From Gemmatimonadota bacterium (GTDB taxonomy: Bacteria; Gemmatimonadota; Gemmatimonadetes; Longimicrobiales; Gaopeijiaceae): a DNA stretch of 48,739 nucleotides. Location: the NCBI GenBank assembly GCA_030430625.1, contig JAUIKL010000009.1, positions 1 to 48,739 of the forward strand, in the 5' to 3' direction. A model generated the notes under the pieces. The model was not told where the DNA came from and did not search any database. It saw only the letters and a program-made list of their open reading frames with translations. The number at the start of each line of letters is the position of its first letter. Position 1 is the stretch's first letter. Below are positions 20,746 through 29,373 of this stretch, piece by piece. Both the position numbers and the translations under genes were made by a program.

Positions 20746-21729
20746 ATGACCGATCGGATCGAACTTCTCGTCGTCGGGGCAGGCCCGTGCGGTATCGCGG
20801 TCGGGGCCGCCGCAGCCAAGAAGGGGGTCTCCTGTACCCTCTTCGACCGCGGGTGCATCACCAACTCGCTGATCGGCTACCCGTACTACATGACCTTCTT
20901 CTCCACCGCGGTCATGCTCGAGGTCGGCGGCGTCCCGTTCACGATTCCGGAATCGAAGCCCACCCGCCGGGAGGCTCTCGCGTACTATCGGAGGGTCGTC
21001 GATCACTTCGACCTCGACGTACGGCAGTACGAGGAGGTTCTGGAGATCGACGGGGAAGCCGGAGACTACACGGTCAAGACGAGACGTCCGGACGGCACCG
21101 AACCGATCTACGCGGCCAACGCAGTCGTCGTGGCTACGGGCGGCTTCCAAGCGCCCAATTTCCTGGGCGTCGAGGGCGAGCAGCTCCCAAAGGTCCGCCA
21201 CTACTATCACGAGCCGTACCCCTACTACGCCCAGGACGTGTTGGTCGTCGGGGCAGGAAACTCCGCAGTGGAGTCGGCACTGGAGATGTTCCGAAACGGC
21301 GTTCGGGTCTCCCTGGTGCACTTCGACGAAGCGATCGATCGCGGTGTGAAGCCCTGGGTGGTCCCGGACATCACCAACCGCTTCGAGCGGGGTGAGATTC
21401 CGGTGTTCTGGAAGCACCGCGTAGCGGAGATCCGGCCCGACTCGGTCGTCCTTCGGGCCGAGGACGATGGCACCACGACCGAGATCGCGAACGACTTCGT
21501 GGTTGCCATGACGGGTTGGCGATCGGACCACAGCCAACTGGCCGCACTCGGCGTACGTATCGACCCGGAGACGGGAATTCCGGAACACGACCCGGCGACG
21601 ATGGAGACGAACGTAGCCGGGCTCTATATCGCGGGCGTGATCGCGGCGGGCCACAACGCGAACAAGATCTTCATCGAGAATGGGCGCGAGCACGGCGATC
21701 TGATCGTGCGACACCATCGCCCGTCCTGA
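20746..21729 (+). CDS. ypdA: YpdA-type FAD/NAD(P)-dependent disulfide reductase (bacillithiol reductase family)
   Basis: This 327-residue flavoprotein has an FAD-binding GAGPCGIAVG at 11-20 and a second dinucleotide site VVGAGNSAVESALE (about 167-180). The early segment GCITNSLIGYPYYMTFFSTA is characteristic of YpdA/Bdr. YpdA reduces bacillithiol disulfide with NADPH in Firmicutes, Bacteroidota and Deinococcus. The family's key Cys can be compared with Cys 15 in GAGPCG, as in the characterised enzymes. This hints that the host makes bacillithiol or a similar thiol, although no bsh biosynthesis gene is in the window. GGAGGTG lies 11 bases before the ATG at 20746. The gene stands alone and converges with a small lipoprotein gene. 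Confidence 0.9.
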   Translation: MTDRIELLVVGAGPCGIAVGAAAAKKGVSCTLFDRGCITNSLIGYPYYMTFFSTAVMLEVGGVPFTIPESKPTRREALAYYRRVVDHFDLDVRQYEEVLEIDGEAGDYTVKTRRPDGTEPIYAANAVVVATGGFQAPNFLGVEGEQLPKVRHYYHEPYPYYAQDVLVVGAGNSAVESALEMFRNGVRVSLVHFDEAIDRGVKPWVVPDITNRFERGEIPVFWKHRVAEIRPDSVVLRAEDDGTTTEIANDFVVAMTGWRSDHSQLAALGVRIDPETGIPEHDPATMETNVAGLYIAGVIAAGHNANKIFIENGREHGDLIVRHHRPS

Positions 21730-22460: not shown

Positions 22461-23102
22461 ATGGCTCGACGCGCCGTAGTTATGACCGTGGCCGTCCTGA
22501 TCGCTGCGGGGTGCGCCTCGGAGGGTGATTCGGATGCGGCCTCGACCGACGAAGTCGCCCTGGCGCTCGGACCGGTCGACGGACACGAGCTGACCGGCAC
22601 CGACCTCGATCGTGTGCAGGTCGGAGCGCTCGCACCGGACTTCACGCTGGCTTCCCTGTCGGGAGCCCCGGTCACCCTCTCGGACTACCGAGGCGCAAAG
22701 GATGTCATCCTGGTCTTCTACCGGGGCCACTGGTGACCCTACTGCGCTCAGCAGCTCGGTGAGCTGCACGGCCTCCTGCCCGCCCCGCTCCAGACCACGA
22801 CCGAGATTATCGCCCTGGCATCCGATGACGCTCCGGAACTGCAGATGATGATCGACCGGGTGGCCGAGGAATACGACGGGCTCGCCCTCGACTACACCTT
22901 CGTCTCGGACCCTGACGCCAGCGTCATCAACAGATACGGCCTCTACAATCAGGATGACCCGCGCGGACGAGCCATCCCGCACCCGACGACGTACGTCATC
23001 GACCGGGAAGGCGTGGTTCGCTGGAAGATGACCGAGGTGAACTACCGGATTCGACCGGAGAACGACGACATCCTCGCGGCGCTGATGGAGATACAGCCGT
23101 AA
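22461..23102 (+). CDS. Selenocysteine-containing lipoprotein peroxiredoxin (UGA at codon 92 read as Sec)
   Basis: Read through one TGA (22734-22736), the frame gives a 213-residue thioredoxin-fold AhpC/TSA-like protein. The lipoprotein signal ends LIAAGC (Cys 18). Then come a linker, the family start VGALAPDFTLASLSGAPVTL, DVILVFYRGHW, the TGA, PYC, and on to VSDPDASVINRYGL and PTTYVIDREGVVRW. In relatives the TGA position holds the peroxidatic Cys of the FYRGxWCPYC motif, so the active site here reads U-P-Y-C (Sec 92, Cys 95). The sequence on both sides of the TGA is normal for the family, with no frame change. A seven-base hairpin follows the TGA, and SelD is encoded 5 kb away. It should reduce peroxides in the periplasm. 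GAGGGAG precedes the ATG by nine bases. Confidence 0.88.
22734..22767 (+). promoter_or_regulatory. UGA selenocysteine codon and candidate bacterial SECIS hairpin
   Basis: After the TGA (22734-22736), GCAGCTC (22751-22757) and GAGCTGC (22761-22767) form a perfect seven-base stem closing the three-base loop GGT. The loop begins 21 bases after the TGA. Bacterial SECIS elements sit just downstream of the UGA and present a G, often GGU, in a small apical loop to SelB, as in E. coli fdhF. Stem, loop and distance all fit. Confidence 0.75.
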
Positions 23103-23243
23103 GTCCCGGTGCCACGTAGCTTTTTGCTACCCACGACCGCCGCAACTCTCCTATCTTTAGGGGTCGACGAGTCGTGCGTGGGTGCTGCCTCCGGTGCCGT
23201 CGCGAAAACCGCGGCTCACATCCCTGTACGATTCGGTGTAAAC

Positions 23244-26159
23244 GTGGAGCCATCGCGTCGCCTGGCGATCTTCTTCGCTCTCCTGGCGCTCTTCGTCGTG
23301 ACCCCTTCGGTCGATGCACAGATCGGCTCGACCGCGCGGGTGGCCGGCACAGTCGTGACCTCGCCGGGCGCCCGCCCGGTGGCCGGAACCCTCGTGACGA
23401 TTCGGTCGCTCAACAGTGGAACGACCCACGAGACCACGACTGCCGGGAACGGAAGCTTCTCCGTCCCGACGCTTCAGCCGGGTCCATACGAGATCCGGGT
23501 CGAAGCCCTGGGCTACCGTCCGCTCGTCGTGCGCGGACTCGTGCTCTTCGCCGGTGACGAGCGCAGTCTCGCCCTCACGATCACGGTCGATCCGCCACCG
23601 GTCGAGCGCATCGATACACTCACGATCTCCAGCAGCTCCGGATCCAGGAACCGAGCCGAAGGCCTCTCCCTCGGCAACATGGAGATGCGACAGCTCCCCT
23701 ACCGCTTCGACGACATCGGGGCGCTGGCCGCCATGGAGTCGTCGTTCGACGAGCGGCTCGGCGCGGAAGGCCTGCCGGGTGAACTCACGGTCCTCGTGGC
23801 GGACGGAGTCCCCGTCTATCGCGCCACGCATCCGAACGCCCGGTCGGAGTCGCTGCCGAGCCCGCTCTTCGGACGCAACCTGATCAGCGGCGTCTCCGTA
23901 CTTCCCCGGGCGACGGATGTCACCCTTCCGGGGGCGGCGGGTGGTCACGTGTCCGTTTCCACCAGGCGAAACAGCGCCGGCCTACCGAACGTGGGCGGCA
24001 GCTGGTCCGCCGACCCGCTCTGGTCGTCCAGCAAGCACGGCTTCGACACCCCGACCCTTCTCTCCTGGCAGGGCTTCGGGAACGTCTCGGCCGATGTGGC
24101 CCCTGGGTCGCGACTCTTCGTGGCCGCCGACGGCATGAGGCACGAAGCGCCGATGGCCATCCGTCTGGCCGACGCATCGGGACTCTCCGGGCTCGCGGAA
24201 GAAGACGTGCAGTCGCTCCAACAGCCGGGTGTGCAGTCCGTTCAGCGAATCGGTGGACTTGCTCGGTTCGATCGCGAGCTCTCGACCACCGACCGCTTCT
24301 TCATGCGGGCCATGCTCGGAGTCTCGGAGCGGACCTTCACGGGTGCCGGGCCGATCCAGAACGGCGACGTGCCCGAGGAAGCTGTCGACTTCTCCACGGC
24401 CTTCGGATACGTCGGGCAGGCGTCACCCAGCGTGACCCTGGACCTGCGCGGCGGCGTGTCGGGCAGCTACCGGGACTTCGCACTCGGTGGTCTGGCACCG
24501 GCCAGCCTCGGTCAACCGGCGGCGGCACTCGGTAGCGCCTCGGGCCTCACGGGATCGTCGACGCGCACCGACATCATCGTCGCGCCCGGACTGGTCCTCG
24601 ACGCCGACGCGACCGAGGTGCGCGTCGGTCTGGCGATCCGGGCAAGTCGGCACTCGATGGAGCGGGCGGACGCCGGGTTCTCGTACACGGATGAGGCGGC
24701 GCAAGCAGCTTCCGTCGGGTACGGCTACACCCAGGTCGCCCCCATGGCGGAGTTCACCACCCGTGAGTTCGGGCTGTACTCGGAGTTGCGGGGGAGTTTG
24801 TCACCGACCCTCTCCTACGTCGCGGGCGCACGATACGACCTGGAGCGCCTCGGGGAGAACCAGGTCTCACTCGGCGAAAACTGGTTGGTGGCCACCGGAC
24901 TGGTGAACAACGACTTCGCGCGTGCCTTCCATCAGTTCGGCGGTCGATTCGTTCTCAACTGGACCCCGATACCGGGGCGCCCGACGCGTATTCGTGCACA
25001 GGCCTCCGTCGACCACGGGGACATCAATCCCCGAAGTCTGTACACCGTAACCAGCGAAGCCACCAACGCATTGGAGACGACCGCCCTGGGGGGAAGTGTC
25101 GAGTGGCCCGATCCCGAACTCGACGCGTTTGCTCCCCTGGCGCACGTCTCCCTGTTCGGGCCGGACCTGCGCGCACCTCGCACCGTCGGGACGGATCTCA
25201 TCGTCCTCCAGGGTTTCGGCCAGTCGACCGTGGTCACCGTCCGCGGATCCTCGCGCCGCACCGACTTCGTGTTCCGCCGACGCAATCTCAACCTTCCAGT
25301 CGTCGCATCCGGACAGGACGCCGGCGGGCGGCCCATCTGGGGCACACTGACGCAGGACGGGGCTCTGGTGGCTGCACTCGGAGGCGATTCTCGTCGGTTC
25401 AACGGCTTCGGAGTGGCATCGGCATTGGATCCGGACGGTTGGTCCGAGTACCGGGGCGTGACGGCGTCGCTCGATCACACGAGCGCGGACGTCTCACTCT
25501 TCGGATCGTATACGTGGTCGGAAACGACCGACAACTGGTTCGGCGCCCAGTCGACCACACCCGGCGCGGACCTTCTACCGGGTATGCCGGTCGACGACGA
25601 CGATCCCGAGTGGTCCGAGGGCGTGTCCGACTTCGATGTCACACACAGAGCCTCGGTCGGTGCCTCCGTCCGAGCCGGACCCGCCAATCTCAGCGCCGTC
25701 TTCCGCTTCGAGTCGGGACTCCCCTTCACCCCGGGGTACCGGTTCGGCGTCGACGCCAACGGGGACGGATCTGCCGCCAACGACGTCGCACTCACGAGCG
25801 TCGCGGGCGCCGATGCCGCCCTGTCGGCGGCGGGCTGCACGTCTCCGACCGGCGCCTACGCGGAGCGGAACAGCTGCCGCGCCTCCTCCAGCCAGACCCT
25901 GAACGTTCGGCTGGCCTTCGACCTCTCGTCGCTCGGGGTCGATCGGGCCCAACTCACGGTCGACGTACTCAACGCGGTGGAGGCGGCTTCGGGAGTCGTC
26001 GACTCGGCGCTGCTTCTCGTCGACCCGACCGGTGCGATCACCACCGCGACCGACGGTACGGTCACCCTCCCGACCACGATCAACCCGGACTTCGGCTCGG
26101 TCATCTACCCGACGTCGATGGGCCGGATGATCCGGGTCGGGTTCCGGATCGGCGCCTAG
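23244..26159 (+). CDS. TonB-dependent receptor-like outer-membrane protein with N-terminal carboxypeptidase-like domain
   Basis: This outer-membrane protein has about 971 residues. A signal peptide (RRLAIFFALLALFVVTPSVDA) is followed by a carboxypeptidase-D regulatory-like domain (about 30-125: VAGTVVTSPGARPVAGTLVT, SFSVPTLQPGPYEIRVEALG). A plug-like region (about 145-260, with LPGELTVLVADGVPVYR and VSVLPRATDVTLPGAAGGHV) and a long barrel with Trp/Tyr/Phe alternation follow. No clear TonB box is visible. The C-terminus ends MIRVGFRIGA rather than in Phe. The GTG at 23244 is chosen because it directly precedes the signal peptide; another in-frame GTG at 23109 would add an unlikely 45-residue leader. 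Substrate unknown. The gene converges with ygfZ. Confidence 0.82.
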   Translation: MEPSRRLAIFFALLALFVVTPSVDAQIGSTARVAGTVVTSPGARPVAGTLVTIRSLNSGTTHETTTAGNGSFSVPTLQPGPYEIRVEALGYRPLVVRGLVLFAGDERSLALTITVDPPPVERIDTLTISSSSGSRNRAEGLSLGNMEMRQLPYRFDDIGALAAMESSFDERLGAEGLPGELTVLVADGVPVYRATHPNARSESLPSPLFGRNLISGVSVLPRATDVTLPGAAGGHVSVSTRRNSAGLPNVGGSWSADPLWSSSKHGFDTPTLLSWQGFGNVSADVAPGSRLFVAADGMRHEAPMAIRLADASGLSGLAEEDVQSLQQPGVQSVQRIGGLARFDRELSTTDRFFMRAMLGVSERTFTGAGPIQNGDVPEEAVDFSTAFGYVGQASPSVTLDLRGGVSGSYRDFALGGLAPASLGQPAAALGSASGLTGSSTRTDIIVAPGLVLDADATEVRVGLAIRASRHSMERADAGFSYTDEAAQAASVGYGYTQVAPMAEFTTREFGLYSELRGSLSPTLSYVAGARYDLERLGENQVSLGENWLVATGLVNNDFARAFHQFGGRFVLNWTPIPGRPTRIRAQASVDHGDINPRSLYTVTSEATNALETTALGGSVEWPDPELDAFAPLAHVSLFGPDLRAPRTVGTDLIVLQGFGQSTVVTVRGSSRRTDFVFRRRNLNLPVVASGQDAGGRPIWGTLTQDGALVAALGGDSRRFNGFGVASALDPDGWSEYRGVTASLDHTSADVSLFGSYTWSETTDNWFGAQSTTPGADLLPGMPVDDDDPEWSEGVSDFDVTHRASVGASVRAGPANLSAVFRFESGLPFTPGYRFGVDANGDGSAANDVALTSVAGADAALSAAGCTSPTGAYAERNSCRASSSQTLNVRLAFDLSSLGVDRAQLTVDVLNAVEAASGVVDSALLLVDPTGAITTATDGTVTLPTTINPDFGSVIYPTSMGRMIRVGFRIGA

Positions 26160-28311: not shown

Positions 28312-29373
28312 ATGGCCAACGAGCCCAGGGACCGCAGGCCGGAGATCCGGCTTTCCCAGCTCAGCCACGGCGCCGGGTGAGCATGTAAACTCGGCATGTC
28401 CGAGCTGGCGCAGGTCCTGCGTCACATCACACCCGTGGACGACCCCGACGCGCTCGTAGGCCAGATGACGGGCGACGATGCGGCGGTGTACCGACTATCC
28501 GACGACCGAGCCCTGGTCGTGACGGCCGACTTCTTCACGCCCATCGTCGACGACCCTTACGACTTCGGGCGAATCGCCGCCACGAACGCCCTGTCGGACA
28601 TCTACGCCATGGGTGCCACCCCGATGTTCGCGTTGAACCTCGTCGGCTTCCCGAGAAAGCTCCTTGGAGAAGGGATCCTCGACGAAGTCCTGCGTGGTGG
28701 AAGCGACGTCTGCGCCAGCGTCGGTATCCCGACACTGGGCGGCCACTCGATCGATGACGCCGAGCCGAAGTACGGCCTCGTTGCCATCGGCCAGGTCGAT
28801 CCGCGCTCGATGGTCACCAACGCCGCAGCCCGACCCGGCGACCGACTCGTCCTCACCAAGGCACTCGGGTCGGGCGTCGTAGCCACGGCGGTCAAAGCCG
28901 GAGTCGCACCCGACGACGTCTTGAGTGTGGCGGTCGAGTCGATGGCGACGCTGAACGCGGGCGCGGCACGGGTGATGGCCGACTTCGGCGTTCGCTGCGC
29001 TACGGACGTGACCGGCTTCGGACTCCTCGGACATCTGCGGAGTCTGTTGAGGGCTTCCGAGCAGGCCGCCCGCGTCGACGCGTCGACCGTTCCACTTCTC
29101 CCGGGTGCACGCGCACTTCTCGAGGCGGGGTACGTGCCCGGCGGCACTCGACGGAATCTGGAGGACCTCGGTCCCGACGTGGACTTCGACCCATCCGTCG
29201 ACGAATCGACCCGGATTCTCCTTGCCGACGCTCAGACCTCCGGCGGACTACTCATGTGCGTCCCGGAGGACGCGACGGCAGAACTGCTGGCGACCCTCGA
29301 AGGCGAAAGCCCCGTGGCGGCCGTCGTCGGCGAGGTCGTCGACGGCCGCCCGGGGTCGATCGAGGTGGTGTAG
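28312..29373 (+). CDS. selD: Selenophosphate synthetase SelD, itself a selenoprotein (UGA at codon 23)
   Basis: The enzyme makes selenophosphate from selenide and ATP, the selenium donor for Sec-tRNA. The ATG at 28312 follows an excellent ribosome site (GAGGAGG, four to five bases away). The frame then gives MANEPRDRRPEIRLSQLSHG, AG, TGA, ACKLGMSELAQ. SelD proteins have LTQxSHGAGCGCK here, where the first Cys (or Sec) is the catalytic residue, so the TGA at 28378-28380 is Sec 23, followed by Cys 25 and the conserved catalytic Lys 26. The rest is typical: GDDAAVYRL, TADFFTPIVDDPYDFGRIAA, GGHSIDDAEPKYGL, DVTGFGLLGHL, LLADAQTSGGLLM. A start at the ATG after the TGA (28396) would remove the active site. 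Full length is 353 residues. Confidence 0.92.
28378..28421 (+). promoter_or_regulatory. UGA selenocysteine codon and candidate SECIS hairpins in selD
   Basis: Two small stems follow the TGA (28378-28380). The near one is CTCGG/CCGAG (28390-28394 with 28400-28404), with loop CATGT starting 14 bases after the TGA. The far one is CGCAG/CTGCG (28409-28413 with 28417-28421), with loop GTC starting 33 bases after. The far loop begins with G, as bacterial SECIS loops usually do, and is still inside the accepted distance. Which one is used, or whether they act together, cannot be told by eye. Confidence 0.5.

Follow-up and report, generated by a model that had tools for sequence, protein, structure and literature searches.

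A gene on the forward strand of the window, the 48,739-nucleotide stretch of Gemmatimonadota DNA analysed here, has a TGA within its reading frame. The question is whether this codon ends the protein or is translated, and if translated, as which amino acid. The sequence-only reading had proposed that the TGA separates two halves of one thioredoxin-fold protein and encodes selenocysteine (Sec). When TGA is read as Sec the frame contains this one internal TGA only, at codon 92, and gives a single protein of 213 amino acids. Both halves are covered by the Pfam domain AhpC-TSA (PF00578; residues 54–188, 96.1 bits, cut-off 26), and PF08534 is also passed (75.3 bits, cut-off 26.6). The locus is therefore one AhpC/TSA-fold protein split by a single in-frame TGA, as had been proposed. 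An Rfam scan of the window at gathering level gave no matches, and no tRNA genes were found in the window. The features are listed in Table 1.

Table 1. Position of the selenoprotein gene, its parts and its neighbours in the window
Feature	Position	Strand	Evidence
Predicted selenoprotein gene, 213 aa, U92, TAA stop	22461..23102	+	TGA=U reading, Pfam, orthologs
In-frame TGA, predicted Sec92 of W-U-P-Y-C	22734..22736	+	51 TGA and 3 TGC in 54 distinct loci
Predicted signal sequence with lipobox AAG-C18	22461..22514	+	Regex and hydropathy scan
Cys95, putative resolving partner of Sec92	22743..22745	+	Invariant in A2 (C62 there)
Pro175, putative cis-Pro of the thioredoxin fold, replacing the peroxiredoxin Arg	22983..22985	+	Invariant, P142 in A2
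SECIS-type hairpin GCAGCTC-GGT-GAGCTGC, 14 nt after the TGA	22751..22767	+	Conservation, published bSECIS rules
selD with its own in-frame TGA at 28378-28380 (HGAG-U-ACKLG)	28312..29373	+	Profile, translation
YpdA-family putative bacillithiol disulfide reductase, upstream	20746..21729	+	TIGR04018, 398.7 bits, cut-off 339.9
Outer-membrane beta-barrel / CarboxypepD_reg protein	23109-26159	+	Between the selenoprotein gene and a YgfZ-like gene

The Sec codon and the Sec machinery

All 38 orthologous loci fetched have a stop at the Sec column and a Cys three residues later. Seven of these are duplicates, leaving 31 distinct loci, and the codon is TGA in every one. Read from the DNA in 54 distinct orthologous loci, the codon is TGA in 51 and TGC in three. 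The downstream half is also conserved, with H141, P142, E159, R165 and P166 invariant (numbering of alignment A2, made of 31 ortholog rows). A full ortholog (at least 191 bits) is present in 34 of 98 relative genomes, each time with exactly one internal TGA, and the next match below these scores 54 bits. Eight orthologous loci were found by a contig scan, seven of which repeat relative-genome loci over 150 nt. Apart from the one new locus (L052), those with titles are from Gemmatimonadota, Gemmatimonadetes or Longimicrobiales MAGs. L052 is an ortholog at 51% identity on a contig titled as a Proteobacteria MAG, through either transfer or misbinning. The plasmid search gave 124 records, every one below 60% identity.

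A phylum-wide search at 1e-25 had matches in 87 of 395 genomes, in 90 rows. Three rows were dropped, two being fragments that miss the Sec column (G412:C485 and G345) and one a canonical peroxiredoxin with Thr there (G380). The 87 rows kept represent 85 genomes; TGA is listed in 84 of the rows and no stop in three, with the codon itself read from the DNA for fetched loci only. By genome, TGA is kept in 82 of 85. Seven of the 84 rows list a TAG besides the TGA; for L101, the row examined, this TAG lies 119 codons further on and ends the gene normally.

The TGC codons are all in one genus (genomes G129, G156 and G320; loci L096–L098). When 17 genomes including these were searched, selA was found in 12; no match was found in the three TGC genomes or in G345 and G380, the other two. 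The best tRNA-Sec matches in the TGC genomes are read as tRNA-Ser by ARAGORN. In a 54-sequence tree, midpoint-rooted without an outgroup, the three Cys forms group together with support 100/97 and lie among the Sec forms, which is best read as a single Sec-to-Cys change. Cys at the Sec column, a mark of bacterial selenoprotein families, is thus found in L096–L098 and also in a Rhizobium peroxiredoxin-like protein of 34% identity. The retention of UGA across the phylum, and the single appearance of Cys together with selA loss, may mean that these proteins had Sec ancestrally and have it as a rule.

Sec machinery is present in the genome that contains the window, which is 87.4% complete. The matches for selA (532 bits), selB (344.6 bits) and selD (382.4 bits) are all above cut-off, and tRNA-Sec (68.6 bits, cut-off 47) is confirmed by ARAGORN with anticodon tca. 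The sequence-only reading had named two observations that would speak against Sec, a genome lacking selA, selB or tRNA-Sec and homologs with an unrelated residue at this position. All three are found, and the orthologous loci read have either TGA (51 of 54) or the Cys codon TGC (3 of 54). Among the relatives, 32 of the 34 genomes that carry the ortholog have selA, as do 32 of the 64 that lack the ortholog (Fisher p 5e-6, kinship ignored). The tRNA-Sec model is unspecific when used alone, since there are weak matches in 14 of 14 control genomes and its cut-off is exceeded in G129 and G320 by what ARAGORN reads as tRNA-Ser. There are exceptions, all in draft assemblies. G010 and G050 carry a TGA ortholog with no selA found, and are 63% and 76% complete; tRNA-Sec is found in G010 (68.5 bits) and none was found in G050. 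G195 (94% complete) has the TGA and selA, yet its best tRNA-Sec match is a tRNA-Ser.

The hairpin 3' of the TGA

A seven-base hairpin with the loop GGT had been described as starting 14 bases after the TGA, and was located there. The loop of 3 nt, stem of 7 bp and spacing of 21 nt all agree with the rules for a bacterial SECIS (bSECIS) as given in the Figure 2 legend of PMC13188914, and the segment folds at -14.7 kcal/mol over 40 nt. There are 1049 TGA trinucleotides in the window, counting both strands and all frames, and two of them, including the Sec TGA, have such a hairpin (13–25 nt after the TGA, a 7-bp Watson-Crick stem and a 3-nt loop starting with G).

All seven base pairs of the stem form in 28 of the 31 loci, where sampling of synonymous codons would give 2.6 such stems. 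Twenty further loci, eight of them from a single family (f4), include 18 with the complete stem, where 1.6 would be expected. Other offsets have zero complete stems, among the best 6 of 400. The codons of the stem are frozen, Gln98 being CAG in 31 of 31, Leu99 CTC in 29 of 31, Glu101 GAG in 30 of 30 and Leu102 CTG in 31 of 31; the invariant Leu residues outside the stem (44, 73 and 84) have mixed codons. Over 51 loci, the outer stem pair is G-C in 26, T-A in 22, A-T in one and unpaired in two, and the first loop base is always G. These 51 loci are not independent, having only 15 different stem-loop sequences, of which 10 are fully paired. In the Cys-form loci 6, 4 and 5 of the 7 pairs are present. 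Compared with synonymous shuffles, the 51 nt following the TGA do not fold with a lower free energy (mean z of -0.07; z below -1 in 3 of 31 loci). A bSECIS hairpin is therefore indicated by the rules and by the pairing, the energy test of the whole segment being negative.

The energy test and the small number of distinct stem sequences would agree with a hairpin that simply follows from conservation of the peptide QLGEL, Sec being inserted through another element. This is improbable given that synonymous sites in the stem are frozen, that both bases of the outer pair vary and that the Cys forms have lost the pairing. Translation of the TGA as Trp, Cys or Arg, through suppression or a changed code, would likewise hold the frame open by read-through alone. 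Such decoding is very improbable: the Sec machinery and a SECIS-type hairpin are present, the exceptions are Cys with selA loss, and the neighbouring genes terminate normally. TGA is also a normal stop, with which some orthologs end, and the codon might be a real stop followed by the debris of a pseudogene, or a sequencing error. The likelihood of this is negligible, as it is refuted by the conservation of TGA at the same column in 51 of 54 distinct loci and of the downstream half, and by the appearance of Cys where selA is lost. On comparative grounds, the UGA at codon 92 is almost certainly read as selenocysteine. The sequence-only reading is upheld here by the orthologs, the genome's own selA, selB, selD and tRNA-Sec, the hairpin, and TGC in three genomes without selA.

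Fold, active site and export

The predicted structure (pLDDT 88.0, pTM 0.87) has Mycobacterium tuberculosis AhpE as its first match in a Foldseek search of the PDB (TM 0.76/0.85), and each of the 50 PDB matches listed is a peroxiredoxin or a related peroxidase/redox entry. AhpE, a cytosolic 1-Cys peroxiredoxin, is the closest solved fold, with 27–28% identity, and ranks above ResA in the profile search. The alignments place U92 opposite the Thr of the AhpE PxxxTxxC motif, Cys95 opposite the peroxidatic Cys, Arg88 opposite the Pro of the site and Pro175 opposite the Arg, the residue that is mutated in 4xih, whose title gives R116A. AhpE has Thr and Arg where the window protein has Sec92 and Pro175. 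Across the 31 rows of A2, R88, C95 and P175 are invariant.

Arg88 takes the Pro position, Sec92 the Thr position and Pro175 the Arg position, so that the site is thioredoxin-like and lacks the canonical peroxiredoxin signature (PxxxTxxC plus the catalytic Arg), of which Cys95 occupies the Cys position. The sequence-only reading had the TGA exactly at the peroxidatic Cys of a peroxiredoxin. This placement was three residues off; it is Cys95 that aligns there, while U92 faces Thr and the peroxiredoxin Pro and Arg are absent. A Sec in the peroxidatic position is therefore rejected. The UxxC motif that had been recognised is present as U92-P-Y-C95, which together with the AhpC-TSA domain characterises the Prx-like UxxC selenoproteins.

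The favoured function is that of a Prx-like UxxC thiol:disulfide oxidoreductase, in which Sec92 would attack and Cys95 would resolve. Because the nearest folds are peroxiredoxins, the protein might instead be a true selenoprotein with peroxidase action, Sec92 or Cys95 reducing periplasmic peroxides and the other residue resolving. The nearest fold and profile match being a 1-Cys peroxiredoxin, and Cys95 being aligned with its peroxidatic Cys, are consistent with this. The peroxidase is nevertheless rather unlikely, since Arg88 and Pro175, which do not vary in A2, stand where a peroxiredoxin has Pro and Arg, Sec stands in place of the Thr, and the motif is a thioredoxin-like UxxC. No reductant or substrate of the selenoprotein was found.

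Export was assessed by a custom script, used in place of SignalP, that picked the start codons and scanned for hydropathy and regex matches. An N-terminal hydrophobic export segment is present in 31 of 31 orthologs. The sequence-only reading considered the lipoprotein form the unusual point; there is a lipobox in 19 of the 31, and the remaining 12 have a signal-like hydrophobic segment only, so that many members of the group, though not all, would have a lipid anchor. For the window protein itself, the exported lipoprotein that had been claimed is also predicted by the regex, through a signal sequence and a lipobox Cys.

The conservation of the gene, the Sec machinery, the hairpin, the replacement by Cys, the export segment and the fold are established computationally; Sec insertion itself, the location in the cell and every catalytic step are inferred. 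The SECIS hairpin just 3' of the UGA would have SelB and tRNA-Sec place Sec at codon 92. The protein is probably exported, and in the source species it would be lipid-anchored, facing the periplasm. There, the target attacked by Sec92 would most likely be a disulfide, or else a peroxide or an oxidised small molecule; Cys95 would resolve the intermediate as an Se-S bond, and a reductant would then recycle the Se-S form. It is highly likely that this is a SECIS-directed Sec92 selenoprotein, exported and probably lipid-anchored, with a U-P-Y-C redox site on a thioredoxin fold.

Related selenoproteins and neighbouring genes

Prx-like thiol:disulfide oxidoreductase selenoproteins (PF00578, UxxC) are catalogued in Table 1 of PMC13188914. 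In the available portions of earlier sources, Prx-like selenoproteins have UXXC in 21 of 22 cases (PMC1088965), 'Prx-like 1' has 225 Sec and 2,740 Cys homologs (PMC2398784), and Prx-like selenoproteins are also covered (PMC1794560). This kind of selenoprotein is therefore already catalogued and, judged by its domain and motif, the window protein belongs to it, sharing the AhpC-TSA fold and Sec as first residue of UxxC. The window group differs from the catalogued set, as compared by description only, in being exported and often lipid-anchored, and in being phylum-wide orthologs with TGA in 82 of 85 genomes. Table 1 of PMC13188914 also has a Redoxin family protein selenoprotein (PF08534, UxxC; representative HEU0032618.1), and by description only the window protein may be of the same subfamily.

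The fold is also that of PrxU (TxxU), but the Sec of the window protein is three residues earlier, and membership is rejected on a weak match to NF040737 (33.9 bits, cut-off 270). The SelL-related redox protein (NF040769) is Prx-like too, and is likewise rejected on a weak match (31.4 of 120 bits). ResA/TlpA-type thiol-disulfide oxidoreductases are exported and have CxxC and a Pro before a strand. The window protein resembles them in these traits, but reaches 52.9 bits with the ResA model, below the 170-bit cut-off.

The string 'Gemmatimonad' is absent from the main text of PMC13188914, and 'Gemmatimon' from the available parts of PMC12013277 and PMC5029168. The window protein is not described in the accessible portions of PMC8938466 and PMC3281104, and no description of a Gemmatimonadota selenoproteome was found in the literature searched, part of which was available as partial text. 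The orthologous group may lie unnamed within metagenomic Prx-like sets.

The window holds a second selenoprotein, SelD (TIGR00476, 360.5 bits, cut-off 125). The gene is 5.2 kb downstream of the Sec92 gene, in agreement with the 5 kb reported from the sequence alone, and its in-frame TGA recurs in L045–L051. SelD is downstream in 7 of 8 loci having 3-kb flanks; most other loci had 1.5-kb flanks only. In related loci SelD starts about 2.5 kb after the Sec TGA, compared to 5.6 kb in the window, and the outer-membrane protein gene between them therefore looks inserted. Among the neighbours listed, a YpdA-like frame is upstream in related loci too, although a link of this putative reductase to the selenoprotein is unproven. 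A second Prx-like gene of the same genome (G000:C121:6300-6917, L056; AhpC-TSA 94.9 bits) has a TGA in FFRGRW-U-PYC. TGA is at the Sec column in 10 of 10 distant redoxin loci (L056–L065), all fetched for carrying TGA.

Standard gene calling would truncate this gene at the TGA throughout the lineage, with loss of the active site in each genome. The orthologs amount to a clean natural experiment, being mostly Sec with one switch to Cys, accompanied by selA loss and hairpin decay. Tentatively, and with somewhat less than even confidence, it may be a distinct exported Prx-like subfamily of the Gemmatimonadota in which Sec is ancestral, and which may be among the reasons for retention of the Sec pathway in this lineage and may constitute a periplasmic redox system based on selenium. 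The findings point to a redox enzyme of this phylum that uses selenium and is exported.
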